A DNA stretch of 20,698 nucleotides from a virus: positions 1 through 20,698 of IMG/VR virus record IMGVR_UViG_3300021233_000049, one strand, 5' to 3'. How positions within the stretch are numbered: the stretch's first letter is position 1; each line of letters opens with the position of its first letter. Both the position numbers and the translations under genes were made by a program. Positions 1 through 20,698 of the stretch are shown here, piece after piece. The notes beneath the pieces are model-generated. The model saw nothing but the letters and a program-made list of their open reading frames with translations, was not told the origin of the DNA and did no database searches.

Positions 1-95
1 TGGAGACAATATTGTTTAGTTTACGTGCTTTGTTATTGAAGACAGTTGTGATGATTATTGTCCGTGTTCGGTGAGGGTTTGTATTTTTTTTTTTT
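1..95. other. Non-biological read-through noise ending in a T12 run
   Basis: This stretch lies outside the Illumina adapter at 96-161 and ends in twelve T residues (84-95). Read on the minus strand, the order is genome, adapter, poly-A, then irregular sequence. That is what an Illumina base caller emits when it reads past the end of a short library molecule. I see no coding potential or gene signal here. It should be trimmed with the adapter. Confidence 0.88.
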
Positions 96-161
96 CAAGC
101 AGAAGACGGCATACGAGATTCCGAAACGTGACTGGAGTTCAGACGTGTGCTCTTCCGATCT
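96..161 (-). other. Illumina P7 / TruSeq index adapter (contamination)
   Basis: Bases 96-119 match the 24-base Illumina P7 flow-cell sequence exactly. Bases 120-127 are an 8-base index (TCCGAAAC, i.e. GTTTCGGA on the other strand, which I recall as TruSeq index 21). Bases 128-161 match the 34-base TruSeq read-2 primer site, ending in CTCTTCCGATCT. In read orientation the adapter is on the minus strand, as expected for a read running off the left edge of the contig. It is an assembly artefact, so the biological sequence begins at about 162. Confidence 0.98.
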
Positions 162-5128: not shown

Positions 5129-8100
5129 ATGAGTTACGCTGGACTACACGTTCACACCCACTACTCGCTATTTGATGGAATTGCTACACCACAAGAATAT
5201 GTGGATCGTGCCATCGCACTAGGTATGCCAGCAATTGCTATTACCGATCATGGTTCACTATCTGGACACCGTGAAATGTATCGTGCTGCTAAAGAAGCAG
5301 GTATCAAGCCAATTCTTGGTATCGAGGGGTATATCACAAAAGACCGCCTCGACCATGAGGATAAGAAAGATAAGAATGACCCTCTAGACCTAAACTATAA
5401 CCACCTTATTATTCTTGCTAAGAATGCAGAGGGGCTAGAAAATCTTAATAAGCTTAATGAGATTGCTTGGACAGAGGGTTTCTACAAGAAGCCACGAATG
5501 GACTGGTCAATTCTTGAGAAGTATAAAGAGGGACTAATCATCACATCAGGATGTCTTAGTGGATATCTTGCAAAAGCTATTGAGGCAGAAAACCTAGCAG
5601 CAGCTAAGTTCCACCTACAGTGGGCTAAGGACACATTCGGTGATGATTACTATATTGAGGTAATGCCACATAATCCAGCAGAGATTAACAAGATTATTCT
5701 AGAGCTTGCTGATGAATTTGGCATCAAGCCAATTACTACACCAGACTGTCACCACTCAGACCCAGGACAGAAAGAGATTCAAGAGTTAAAGCTCATTCTA
5801 AACTCTTACTCTAACAAGACTGATAAGAATGCTTCATTTGAGAAGTCTCGTGAGTACGATAATCTTATGGATCGACTTGACTATCTCTATGGTGCAGACC
5901 GACAAATGACATTCAACAAGTTTGAGATTCATTTGCTTTCTGACGAAGAGATGCGCTCTGCCATGCTTGAGCAGGGTATTGACCGTGAAGATATCTACTC
6001 AAATACTCTTGAGATTGTAGATAAGATTCAGGACTACAATATCGAAGACCACATTGACTTGCTTCCAGTACAATACCAGAAGCCAAATGATGAACTTCGT
6101 AATCTTGCTATGGAAGGCTTGACTGCTCTTGGCTTTGCAGATAATCAGGAGTACCTTGACCGACTAGATGAAGAGTTACAGGTAATCAAGGATAAGAACT
6201 TCGGTCCATACTTCTTGGTTGTACGCTCTATGATTGCATGGGCAAAGAAGGAAGGCATCATGGTAGGTCCAGGTCGTGGGTCTGCTGCTGGTTCGCTTTT
6301 GTGCTATGCACTTGGAATTACTGACATTGATCCTATTGAGCATGGTCTATTGTTCTTCCGATTTATCAATCCAGAACGTAATGACTTCCCAGATATTGAT
6401 ACAGATATCCAGGACTCTCGTCGTGAAGAGGTCAAAGACTACCTTGTACGTCAGTACCGACACGTAGCCTCTATCGCTACATTCTTGCAGTTTAAAGGCA
6501 AGGGTATGGTTCGTGACATTGCTCGTGTGCTTATGATTCCACTAACAGATGTTAACAAGGTTCTAAAGCTTGTTGATGACTGGGATGACTATTGTAACTC
6601 TAAGTCTACTGAATGGTTTCGTGAAAAGTATCCAGAGGTAGAGATGTATGGAGAGCAACTACGTGGTCGTATTCGTGGTACTGGTATTCACGCTGCTGGT
6701 GTCGTTACTGCAAAAGAGCCTATCTTCAAGTACGCACCACTAGAGACACGAACATCTCCAGGAAGCAAAGAGCGTATTCCTGTGGTTGCTGTTGACATGG
6801 AGGAAGCAGAGCGTATTGGTCTTATTAAGATTGATGCTCTTGGTCTAAAGACCCTCTCTGTTATTCAGGACACTATCGGTATTATCAAAGAGCGTACAGG
6901 TGATGTTATTGACCTACACGACATTGATATGGATGATAGGAATGTCTACGCAATGCTATCTGACGGCTTTACAAAAGGTGTATTCCAGTGTGAAGCTACT
7001 CCATATACCAATCTTCTCGTTAAGATGGGTGTGAAGAGTCTTGCAGAGCTTGCAGCTTCTAATGCTCTAGTGCGTCCAGGTGCTATGAATACTATTGGTA
7101 AAGACTATATTGCTCGCAAACATGGTAAGCAAAATATCTCATATCATCACCAAGTTATGAAAACATTCACGCAAGAAACGTATGGCTGTATTCTATACCA
7201 GGAACAGGTTATGCAGGCTTGTGTGGAACTTGGCGGTATGTCAATGGCAGAAGCTGATAAGGTTCGTAAGATTATCGGTAAGAAGAAGGATGCTAAAGAG
7301 TTCGATCAGTTCCAAGATAAATTCGTACAGGGTGCTACAAAGTACCTTGGAGAAGAGGGGGCTAGAAACCTATGGCATGACTTTGAGGCACACGCTGGCT
7401 ACTCATTCAACAAGAGTCACGCTGTAGCCTATTCTACGGTCTCATACTGGACTGCATGGCTAAAGTACCACTACCCAATTGAGTTTATGTTTGCTCTTCT
7501 CAAGAACGAGAAGGACAAGGATGCTCGTACAGAATATCTAATTGAGGCAAAGCGTATGGGCATTTCAATCAAGTTGCCACACATCAACGACTCTGATATT
7601 GACTTCAAGATTGAGGGCAAAGGTATTCGATTTGGACTCAGTGCAATCAAGTATATCTCTGACAATATTGCTCAGAAGTTTATCTCTGCACGACCATTCA
7701 ACTCATATAAAGAGTTGGAAGAGTTCACATTTGGCAAGGGTAATGGTGTAAACTCTCGTGCATTATCAGCACTAAGACTAATTGGTGCAGCTACATTCGA
7801 AGATAATCCACGTAATGATGAAGAGATTCGTCAAAATCTATACGAGTACTTGAATCTACCAGAATTCAACATCTCTGTTCCATCACACTACAATGCGTAC
7901 ATTACAGACACAGAGGAGTATGAGGAAAAGGGATCATTCGTTCTGATGGGTATTGTCAAGAATATCAAGCGAGGCAAGGGCTGGTCTAGAGTAGAAATTC
8001 TAGATAAGACTGGAGTCGCTGGAATCTTTGACAATGAAGATACTTTGATTGAAGCAGGCAAAACATATCTAATTCTTGCTAGCGATAATCGAATCTCTTT

Positions 8101-8401
8101 TGCTGTGCCAGTTGATGAAATCAAAGATTCTGATTCCTCTCTGATTAAGTACATGAACTATCGTATGCTTCCATATCAGGAAGACGAGATGTTTGTAGTA
8201 TCATTCAGACCACGAATCACTAAGGCTGGCAAGAAGATGGCATACATGGTGGTAGCAGACTCTGGAAGAGAGCTACACTCTGTTACCGTTTTCCCAACAC
8301 AATTCCCCAAGGCATACATGAAAGTGCAAGAAGGAAATGTGTACAAATTTTCATTCGCAAAAACTAAAGATGGAACAACTATATTGGAGGATATAAAATA
8401 A
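5129..8401 (+). CDS. dnaE: DNA polymerase III alpha subunit (family C) with PHP exonuclease domain
   Basis: The product is 1090 residues, the replicative polymerase. The N-terminal PHP domain (1-about 290) retains a full metal-site set: H7, H9, D16, H41, E66, H92, C142, D206 and H208. The first five are offset by exactly seven from the M. tuberculosis DnaE1 residues as I recall them. A proofreading exonuclease activity in the PHP domain is therefore likely. The polymerase core has GPGRGSAAGS (380-389), catalytic Asp in PDIDTD (D424, D426) and a third Asp in IDALGLKTL (D569). The C-terminal part (about 925-1090) contains an OB-like fold (FVLMGIVKNIKRGKGWSRVEI). No intein is seen and the length fits the family. 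Its stop overlaps the next ATG (TAATG). No separate epsilon-type exonuclease is present in the window. Confidence 0.95.
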   Translation: MSYAGLHVHTHYSLFDGIATPQEYVDRAIALGMPAIAITDHGSLSGHREMYRAAKEAGIKPILGIEGYITKDRLDHEDKKDKNDPLDLNYNHLIILAKNAEGLENLNKLNEIAWTEGFYKKPRMDWSILEKYKEGLIITSGCLSGYLAKAIEAENLAAAKFHLQWAKDTFGDDYYIEVMPHNPAEINKIILELADEFGIKPITTPDCHHSDPGQKEIQELKLILNSYSNKTDKNASFEKSREYDNLMDRLDYLYGADRQMTFNKFEIHLLSDEEMRSAMLEQGIDREDIYSNTLEIVDKIQDYNIEDHIDLLPVQYQKPNDELRNLAMEGLTALGFADNQEYLDRLDEELQVIKDKNFGPYFLVVRSMIAWAKKEGIMVGPGRGSAAGSLLCYALGITDIDPIEHGLLFFRFINPERNDFPDIDTDIQDSRREEVKDYLVRQYRHVASIATFLQFKGKGMVRDIARVLMIPLTDVNKVLKLVDDWDDYCNSKSTEWFREKYPEVEMYGEQLRGRIRGTGIHAAGVVTAKEPIFKYAPLETRTSPGSKERIPVVAVDMEEAERIGLIKIDALGLKTLSVIQDTIGIIKERTGDVIDLHDIDMDDRNVYAMLSDGFTKGVFQCEATPYTNLLVKMGVKSLAELAASNALVRPGAMNTIGKDYIARKHGKQNISYHHQVMKTFTQETYGCILYQEQVMQACVELGGMSMAEADKVRKIIGKKKDAKEFDQFQDKFVQGATKYLGEEGARNLWHDFEAHAGYSFNKSHAVAYSTVSYWTAWLKYHYPIEFMFALLKNEKDKDARTEYLIEAKRMGISIKLPHINDSDIDFKIEGKGIRFGLSAIKYISDNIAQKFISARPFNSYKELEEFTFGKGNGVNSRALSALRLIGAATFEDNPRNDEEIRQNLYEYLNLPEFNISVPSHYNAYITDTEEYEEKGSFVLMGIVKNIKRGKGWSRVEILDKTGVAGIFDNEDTLIEAGKTYLILASDNRISFAVPVDEIKDSDSSLIKYMNYRMLPYQEDEMFVVSFRPRITKAGKKMAYMVVADSGRELHSVTVFPTQFPKAYMKVQEGNVYKFSFAKTKDGTTILEDIK

Positions 8402-12302: not shown

Positions 12303-13334
12303 ATGAAACCATACAGCAACAAGCCAAGTCTAGCTTTTGACGATATCCTTCTAGTGCCACAGCATTCAGATATTTCTAGTCGAAAGAACATTAGACTAAC
12401 ATCTAGCATTGGTATAGATGTTCGTTCAATCAGTCTTAGAACACCCATTATTGCAGCTCCTATGGATACAGTATCTGAATGGGAAATGGCTACAGCAATG
12501 CGAGATAATGGCGGTATTGCTATTATTCATCGCTATATGCCAATTGAGAAGCAAGTAACCATGATTAAGATGGCAAAAGCAAATAATGCTATTGTAGGTG
12601 GATCTGTTGGTGCTAAGGATAACTATATTACAGATGCAGTAAAGCTATTTGATGCTGGAGCAATCGTTATTCTAGTTGATACAGCAAATGGTCATAGTCA
12701 GTATGCAATTGATGCAGTAAAGAATTTGCGTAGCACATTTGGTATCCATGCACATATTATGGCTGGTAACGTGTCTACATGGGAGGGCTTCTCTGCACTA
12801 CAGGATGCAGGTGCTGACTCTATTCGTGTTGGTATTGGTGGAGGTTCTGCTTGTACTACTCGTATTGTTAGTGGTCATGGTATGCCTACTCTTCAATCTA
12901 TTATTGATATTCGTGAGCGATTCCCATATGGTTCTGGTGCTTCTATCATTGCTGATGGAGGTATTCGTAATTCTGGAGACGCTTCTAAGGCTCTAGCTGC
13001 TGGTGCTAATGCAGTAATGCTTGGTGGTGCTCTAGCAGGCACAGACGAGTCACCAGGGGCTGTAGTAGACGGACACAAACTATTCCGTGGTATGGCTTCT
13101 AGAGAGGCTCAGGCAGACGGTAGAGGCTCTGTGTCTGGTGTAGAGGGAATTGCTACCACTGTTCCATACCGTGGCAGTGTAGCTAATGTAATCTCTGAAT
13201 TCAGGGACGGTATCTCAAGTGCAATGTCCTATACAGGTGTTGATAACCTCTATGACTTTGCAACAGAAAGTATGTATACAGCAATTACTAATTCTGGTAT
13301 TGCTGAGAGCAAGCCACACGCAAAGGTAGCATAA
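12303..13334 (+). CDS. IMP dehydrogenase / GMP reductase family enzyme without CBS domains
   Basis: The product is 343 residues, a TIM-barrel enzyme of purine metabolism. The N-terminus is IMPDH-like ([33 protein letters not shown]). The catalytic loop is [11 protein letters not shown] with the nucleophile C184, and a phosphate-binding IADGGIR follows at 216-222. The CBS pair that interrupts most IMPDHs near residue 100 is absent, giving the length of GMP reductase (about 330-350). The flap after KLFRGMAS (259-266) is short and lacks the Arg-Tyr pair of IMPDH, but keeps a Glu (E281) before VPYRG. I cannot decide between IMP to XMP oxidation and GMP reduction. Either would alter guanine nucleotide supply for phage DNA synthesis. 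It is an auxiliary metabolic gene. Confidence 0.85.
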
Positions 13335-15921: not shown

Positions 15922-15930
15922 GTGGGTATA

Positions 15931-16321
15931 ATGGATATAATCTACTTTTCAAATCGTTCTGGTAATACAAAACGCTTTGTAGAAAAGTTGGAAGATTACA
16001 GAGTTTCCAGAATCCCACTCAAGTGGGAAGAGGAAGCTCCTTTTCTTACTGATAAAGAATACGTATTATTTGTGCCAACCTATGGTGGTGGAAATGATGG
16101 ATTTAGCATACCTGCTTCAGTAAAGAAATTCTTAAACATTGAGTCTAACAGAAAACTTCTTCGTGGAGTAGTTGGATTCGGAAACACAAACTTTGGCGAA
16201 CACTTTTGTCATGCTGCAGAACTAATTTCTCAGAAAACAGGTGTCCCAATTTTAGGCAGGGTAGAGCTATTTGGCACTCCCGAAGATGTAGTAAAAATAA
16301 AAGAGAGGTTGGAGAAGTTTA

Positions 16322-16335
<14 letters not shown>
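15931..16335 (+). CDS. nrdI: NrdI flavodoxin-like activator of ribonucleotide reductase
   Basis: The product is 134 residues from the ATG at 15931. A GTG at 15922 would add three residues, but the ATG gives the usual NrdI start ([13 protein letters not shown]) and has GGTGGG upstream. NrdI is an FMN protein that supplies superoxide or a related oxidant for assembly of the manganese-tyrosyl cofactor in NrdF. The FMN phosphate loop is [10 protein letters not shown], and further binding loops are PTYGGGNDG and GNTNFGEHF. Length fits the family. It overlaps nrdE by 14 bases. A NrdH glutaredoxin-like gene, common beside NrdI, is absent here. Confidence 0.92.
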
Positions 16336-19402
<3,067 letters not shown>

Positions 19403-19403
<1 letters not shown>

Positions 19404-19718: not shown

Positions 19719-19901
19719 ATGGAAAAACCATACTATGGATCAAACACAAGAGCCAAATTTATAATCTACTGCAGTTCATACGAAATGGCTGAAGCATATG
19801 CTGCCAAACGTGGATGGGACTCAAAGGACTGGAGACATTACCACGACAATGTTGCCCCAGAAAAAGCGGTAGTATTCGAAAGACAGAAAGAGAAATCGTA
19901 A
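19719..19901 (+). CDS. Small protein of unknown function, possibly leaderless
   Basis: The product is 60 residues. It begins with a Tyr-rich MEKPYYGSN, then a short beta strand (AKFIIYCSSYE) and a helix (MAEAYAAKRGWDSKDWRHYH), ending in a charged helix (FERQKEKS). It contains one Cys and two or three His, too few for a clear zinc site. Its stop overlaps the FmdB-like start by one base (TAATG), so the two are translationally linked. With the -10 box at 19705, its ATG would be at the RNA 5' end. No family is recognised and no function is offered. Confidence 0.65.
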   Translation: MEKPYYGSNTRAKFIIYCSSYEMAEAYAAKRGWDSKDWRHYHDNVAPEKAVVFERQKEKS

Positions 19902-20077
19902 TGCCAATTTATGAGTATAAGTGTAGTACATGTAATGAAGTAGTTGTTGAGAATAAGCAACCAGCAATGAGCCAAGACTTGCCAATTTGCTCTATTTGTG
20001 ATACAGTTATGAAAAGGTTATACGGTAGTCCAGGTCTTGCCTTTAAGGGCAATGGCTTTTATTCAACTGATAAGTAA
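19901..20077 (+). CDS. FmdB-like zinc-ribbon protein
   Basis: The product is 58 residues with the hallmark FmdB pattern: start MPIYEYKCSTC (C8-x2-C11), a second knuckle CSICD around 31-34, and the conserved end GLAFKGNGFYSTDK. Proteins of this family bind one zinc through the two CxxC knuckles. They were first linked to regulation of the formamide/amide operon, but most remain without a defined role. In phages the family is widespread and small. It overlaps the preceding gene by one base. I infer zinc binding with confidence and regulation only by family name. Confidence 0.85.
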   Translation: MPIYEYKCSTCNEVVVENKQPAMSQDLPICSICDTVMKRLYGSPGLAFKGNGFYSTDK

Positions 20078-20087
20078 GAGGTGTAAA

Positions 20088-20333
20088 ATGGTAGTAATGG
20101 AAGAAACAAAGGTAGAGGAAAAGCAAGAGCGTCAGCTTACACTCAATGATCGATGCGACTCATGTAATGCTGCTGCCTACGTAAAGGTAACAGGCGTTAC
20201 TGGAGAGCTTTTCTTTTGTGGACACCACTTCAATAAGTTTGAGAATACTGAAAGTATGAAAGCATTTGCTTTTGAAACAGTAGACGAGCGTAGCTTTCTT
20301 CTAGGAGAGAATCGACTTAAGGGGCAACTCTAA
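20088..20333 (+). CDS. Small zinc-binding protein of an actinobacterial and actinophage type
   Basis: The product is 81 residues from the ATG at 20088, behind AAGAGGTG. A later Met at 20097 is possible. The core reads LNDRCDSCNAAAYVKV, then GELFFCGHHFNKF: a CxxC knuckle and a C-G-H-H, likely one zinc site. The DRCD-x-C, AAYV and LLFCGHH pattern is typical of a small domain seen in actinobacteria and their phages (I recall it as DUF7455). This is one of the best host clues in the window. It probably binds zinc. A role in transcription or translation control is possible but unproven. Its stop overlaps the next start by one base. Confidence 0.75.
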   Translation: MVVMEETKVEEKQERQLTLNDRCDSCNAAAYVKVTGVTGELFFCGHHFNKFENTESMKAFAFETVDERSFLLGENRLKGQL

Positions 20334-20610
20334 TGGATAGTCGAAAAGATAAGATGTTCAATAATCTAATTCTTATTGGTGCAATTGAGCCTGCTGGAAT
20401 GGATATGGATACTGGAGAGATGCTGTTCTGCTTCTCTGAGAATATCGAAACTGTTGCACCAGGTCTTGCAAAGTCAGTAAGTGATAAGATTTCATCAACT
20501 GTAATGAATCTCTGGAGTAAGGGATTCGTTGAGCTAAAGTATAATGATGACAGTGATGACCCACTAGTATTTCTAACAGACCGATGCAATGATGATTTTG
20601 CAATTTCTGT
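20333..20610 (+). CDS. N-terminal part of an unknown protein cut by the contig end
   Basis: About 93 residues are genuine. The frame continues to 20677, but from 20611 it reads adapter sequence, so the apparent C-terminus is false. The visible part is alpha/beta (NNLILIGAIEPAGMDMDTGEMLFCFSE by position about 10-36) with helices ASDKISSTVMNLW-like in the middle. It ends in a strand with acidic turns (YNDDSDDPLVFL). No catalytic motif can be named. The start overlaps the preceding stop (TAATG), so it belongs to the same operon. The function is unknown. Confidence 0.6.
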
Positions 20611-20698
20611 AGATTGTAAGCGCACAAGTCTGAACTCAAGCCACGATTCGGAATCGCGTTTGCCGAATCAGGTCTGAAAAAACAAAACATATAAAAAT
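20611..20698 (+). other. Error-rich TruSeq adapter read-through (contamination)
   Basis: Aligned without gaps from 20611, 28 of 34 bases match the TruSeq adapter (AGATCGGAAGAGC onward). Bases 20645-20652 match the index GTTTCGGA in seven of eight. Bases 20653-20676 match the following P7 reverse complement in 15 of 24. An A-rich tail ends the contig. Errors increase along the read, as in low-quality read-through. The index is the same as in the left-end adapter. Confidence 0.9.

Follow-up and report, generated by a model that had tools for sequence, protein, structure and literature searches.

Illumina TruSeq single-index libraries yield, in their established chemistry, a read-through sequence that starts with an A and then continues with GATCGGAAGAGC. 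The elements follow in a fixed order, namely the A-tail, the adapter stem, the index, the P7 end and poly-A, and index 21 (GTTTCGGA), as a stock index, is shared by many libraries. A literature search on adapter contamination returned, among titles and abstract openings, no paper on the present case. The stretch of DNA analyzed here (virus record IMGVR_UViG_3300021233_000049, 20,698 nucleotides, hereafter the window) shows the same order of elements at its right end, in a copy that differs from the TruSeq index-21 adapter at 16 of 66 bases. We conclude with near certainty that 20611-20698 represents untrimmed read-through adapter followed by noise, an artefact of library and assembly and not biology.

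Running the ungapped alignment of 20611-20676 to the TruSeq index-21 read-through sequence, as the preliminary description had suggested, revealed agreement at 50 of 66 positions, made up of 28/34 in the stem, 7/8 in the index and 15/24 in the P7 end. These counts, as well as the subsequent turn to A-rich sequence, reproduce to the base what that description had reported as a degraded adapter. The stem proper, corresponding to adapter bases 2-34, matches at 27 of 33 positions, and including the A at 20611 gives 28 of 34. For the index, read as GATTCGGA, the runner-up among the TruSeq indices reached just 4/8. Altogether, the final 88 bases comprise AGATTGTAAGCGCACAAGTCTGAACTCAAGCCAC GATTCGGA ATCGCGTTTGCCGAATCAGGTCTG and an A-rich run after these, in which 20677-20698 contains 17 A, 2 C, 3 T and no G. 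The adapter lies in read-1 orientation (forward) and runs outward to the contig end, with a recognised index in its proper place.

The phage gene entering this region could be followed in two relatives. Searching with its 92 genuine codons, we found IMGVR_UViG_3300021233_000141 (L002; the whole contig, L135 or G001, has 17,893 bases), the first 140 bases of which equal window positions 20471-20610 at 139 of 140 positions, the single difference being at 20581. A second relative, G002 (IMGVR_UViG_3300028025_003852, 72,814 bases), aligns to the greater part of the window with 70-89% identity. Within the truncated gene, identity is 99% to G001 over 20471-20610 and about 70% at the DNA level to G002. 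In both alignments, similarity to the window stops at 20610, and G001 departs exactly at 20611 with coding sequence that is common to G002. Past the junction, G001 reads LPEFEGIVLRNVIEHFRQDEV and a stop, and G002 reads LPDFEGMVLKNMIEHFKQDQA; the two share LP(E/D)FEG...IEHF(R/K)QD, which the window lacks, and in both the downstream gene starts MEYLLLILLVIPIF. G001 moreover runs on along G002 in the same order, and this colinearity makes it very probable that the phage of the window truly continues in G001. Between window positions 19727-20012 and G002 41833-44922, G002 is about 3 kb longer between matching blocks, reflecting an insertion or deletion between the relatives. A Pfam search of the truncated protein returned no family, and a tblastn search against annotated phage genomes gave no match, so that the relatives come from IMG/VR alone.

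These alignments bear out the earlier claim that the adapter creates a false protein C-terminus in the frame reaching 20677. The frame 20333-20677 reads through the adapter and ends in ...AISVDCKRTSLNSSHDSESRLPNQV, compared to the true C-terminus ...AISVLPEFEGIVLRNVIEHFRQDEV. By accident, the false and the true stop share the coordinate 20675-20677, giving a protein of 114 residues in the window and in the relative alike; protein length therefore gives no warning. The features of both contig ends are compiled in the table.

Table. Adapter-derived and adjoining features of the window
Feature	Position	Strand	Remarks
Poly-T, corresponding to poly-A on the read strand, with noise, outward of the left adapter	1..95	-
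Error-free second copy of the index-21 adapter	96..161	-	66/66
Genuine 5' part of the truncated phage gene	20333..20610	+	92 codons and 2 bases; function unassigned
False coding extension from the adapter	20611..20677	+	DCKRTSLNSSHDSESRLPNQV (21 residues), then a stop
First base outside the phage sequence, A-tail of the library insert	20611	+	relatives depart exactly here
Error-rich TruSeq read-1 read-through stem	20612..20644	+	27/33
Index 21, read as GATTCGGA	20645..20652	+	7/8
P7 flow-cell end of the adapter	20653..20676	+	15/24; still aligns with one-base gaps
A-rich run beyond the molecule end, base-caller noise	20677..20698	+	17/22 A; composition course as in 35 other adapter tails

At the left end, phage sequence begins at 162, and the phage sequence of the window is thus 162-20610. 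Positions 162-421 hold the C-terminal 85 codons of a protein that is probably a variable structural protein, with similarity to G002 and G003 beginning at 422. IMG/VR yielded no relative of this protein, nor did G002 or G003 show a match to it, and a search for a neighbour contig carrying the coding piece at 164-418 found none. Further genes in the window encode a DNA polymerase III alpha subunit (5129-8401), a protein of the IMP dehydrogenase / GMP reductase family (12303-13334; Pfam IMPDH, E 1.5e-93), NrdI (15922-16335) and a ribonucleotide reductase small chain (18408-19403).

Scanning IMG/VR for the exact adapter stem revealed at least 120 stretches containing it. Nearly all copies at the adapter-bearing loci examined are outward-facing and situated less than about 250 bases from a contig end, and many continue into the P7 end and poly-A; an exception is L015, with 1257 bases past the stem. 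The exact index-21 junction was present in 19 IMG/VR stretches, 18 of which stem from dataset 3300021233 and one, L138 (IMGVR_UViG_3300021246_000072), from dataset 3300021246. The L138 junction, the sole one outside 3300021233, could stem from a sister library, from reuse of the index or from carry-over. The contig that adjoins the window in the same phage, L135, ends in a similar manner: its right end (17803-17893) bears its own degraded index-21 adapter (gapped local score 92). In L135 as in L024 (IMGVR_UViG_3300021370_000006), an adapter with the index of the library is located no more than a few hundred bases from a contig end, with poly-A and noise after it. L024 also resembles the window in having one clean and one degraded end, with a perfect 64/64 and a degraded 55/64 copy at opposite ends, but differs in dataset (3300021370) and index (6). 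Adapter sequence was also found at both ends of L139 and L141. The right ends of L021 and L082 apparently include the first bases of the second TruSeq adapter type, the universal (read-2) one, AGATCGGAAGAGCGTCGTGTAGGGAAAGA.

Could the right end nevertheless be real phage sequence, namely a divergent C-terminus with a chance likeness to the adapter? The open frame to 20677 and the protein length, equal to that of the relative, would fit such a reading. However, the 49/65 match at the right end compares to a maximum of 36/65 and a mean of 31.5 for 1000 shuffled adapters placed anywhere in the window on either strand, the second-best forward match of the adapter inside the window is 31/65, and the gapped local alignment score is 94, whereas 3000 internal 130-base stretches gave no more than 32. 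The perfect same-index copy at the opposite end argues against a chance likeness as well, as do the two relatives: the preliminary description had pointed to a related phage conserving the window's coding sequence from 20611 onward as the contrary case, and the opposite was seen, both relatives conserving another sequence. With the breakpoint at 20610/20611 and the adapter match taken together, a real divergent C-terminus is refuted, its probability being negligible. Equally minute is the probability that 20611-20698 is real DNA in the phage population, for example an alternative gene end that is accidentally adapter-like.

Taking the tail as adapter, its 16 mismatches are best explained as late-cycle sequencing errors in a single untrimmed read. 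The word "degraded" in the preliminary description should, we infer, be taken as sequencing error late in a read and not as mutation of the DNA. Alternatively, several adapter-bearing reads may have been merged, or the mismatches may have been introduced during oligo synthesis or PCR; we regard this alternative as unlikely. The errors are indeed scattered and begin early, the first at the fifth adapter base; matches per 11 bases amount to 8, 10, 9, 10, 9 and 4, and the lack of a steady fall before the last stretch counts against a smoothly rising error rate. Furthermore, the left end of L142 carries two adapter fragments head to tail, reflecting adapter reads assembled together, so assemblers do merge such reads. 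In contrast, a consensus of several reads normally removes random errors, synthesis or PCR would leave far fewer errors than 16 in 66, and perfect adapter copies are present in other contigs of dataset 3300021233. The insert immediately upstream of the adapter is clean, as expected if other reads cover the insert while a single read covers the tail. A simple phasing model was not favoured, too few of the mismatches (9/16) being equal to the previous or next adapter base. Past the adapter, the first 12 bases of the tails are 88% A, giving way to C/A-rich noise; their in-register likeness is 0.283 vs 0.285 for shuffled tails, and being no more alike than these, the tails carry no shared sequence. 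As to the origin of the two ends, the same adapter and index were found at both, in line with the preliminary description, which had taken this to show that both arose in one library. With a stock index such as index 21, a match by itself does not prove this claim, and two different libraries sharing index 21 could have been co-assembled; one index-21 contig does belong to another dataset, 3300021246. Given that a single dataset, 3300021233, accounts for 18 of the 19 index-21 contigs and for G001, which overlaps the window, one library is very likely and two libraries are improbable. By its index and its overlap with G001, the window very probably belongs to dataset 3300021233 as well.

Late-cycle errors in a single untrimmed read would fit the following course of events. 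A fragment shorter than the read length would be sequenced in read 1, and the read would pass the insert, the A-tail and the index-21 TruSeq adapter before running off the molecule end into poly-A and noise. Left untrimmed and poor in its late cycles, this read would form the contig end alone or nearly alone, and a single read is what we infer behind the right end. The indexed P7 adapter is present at either end, and both ends should therefore represent read-1 read-through of short inserts. Non-insert bases number 161 at the window's left end and up to about 238 in other 3300021233 contigs, which points to long reads, probably of at least 250 bases.

The relevance of these findings is one of data quality only: the contig should be trimmed to 162-20610, and the false C-terminus should be neither deposited nor clustered, keeping in mind that a length check would miss a protein of equal length. 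Degraded adapter copies slip past exact screens, and with 16 mismatches in 66 bases the right-end copy escapes near-exact ones as well. The adapter index, in turn, is usable as a label linking contigs to their library. Untrimmed TruSeq adapters being present in well over a hundred IMG/VR contig stretches, the case serves as a warning for public viral contigs.
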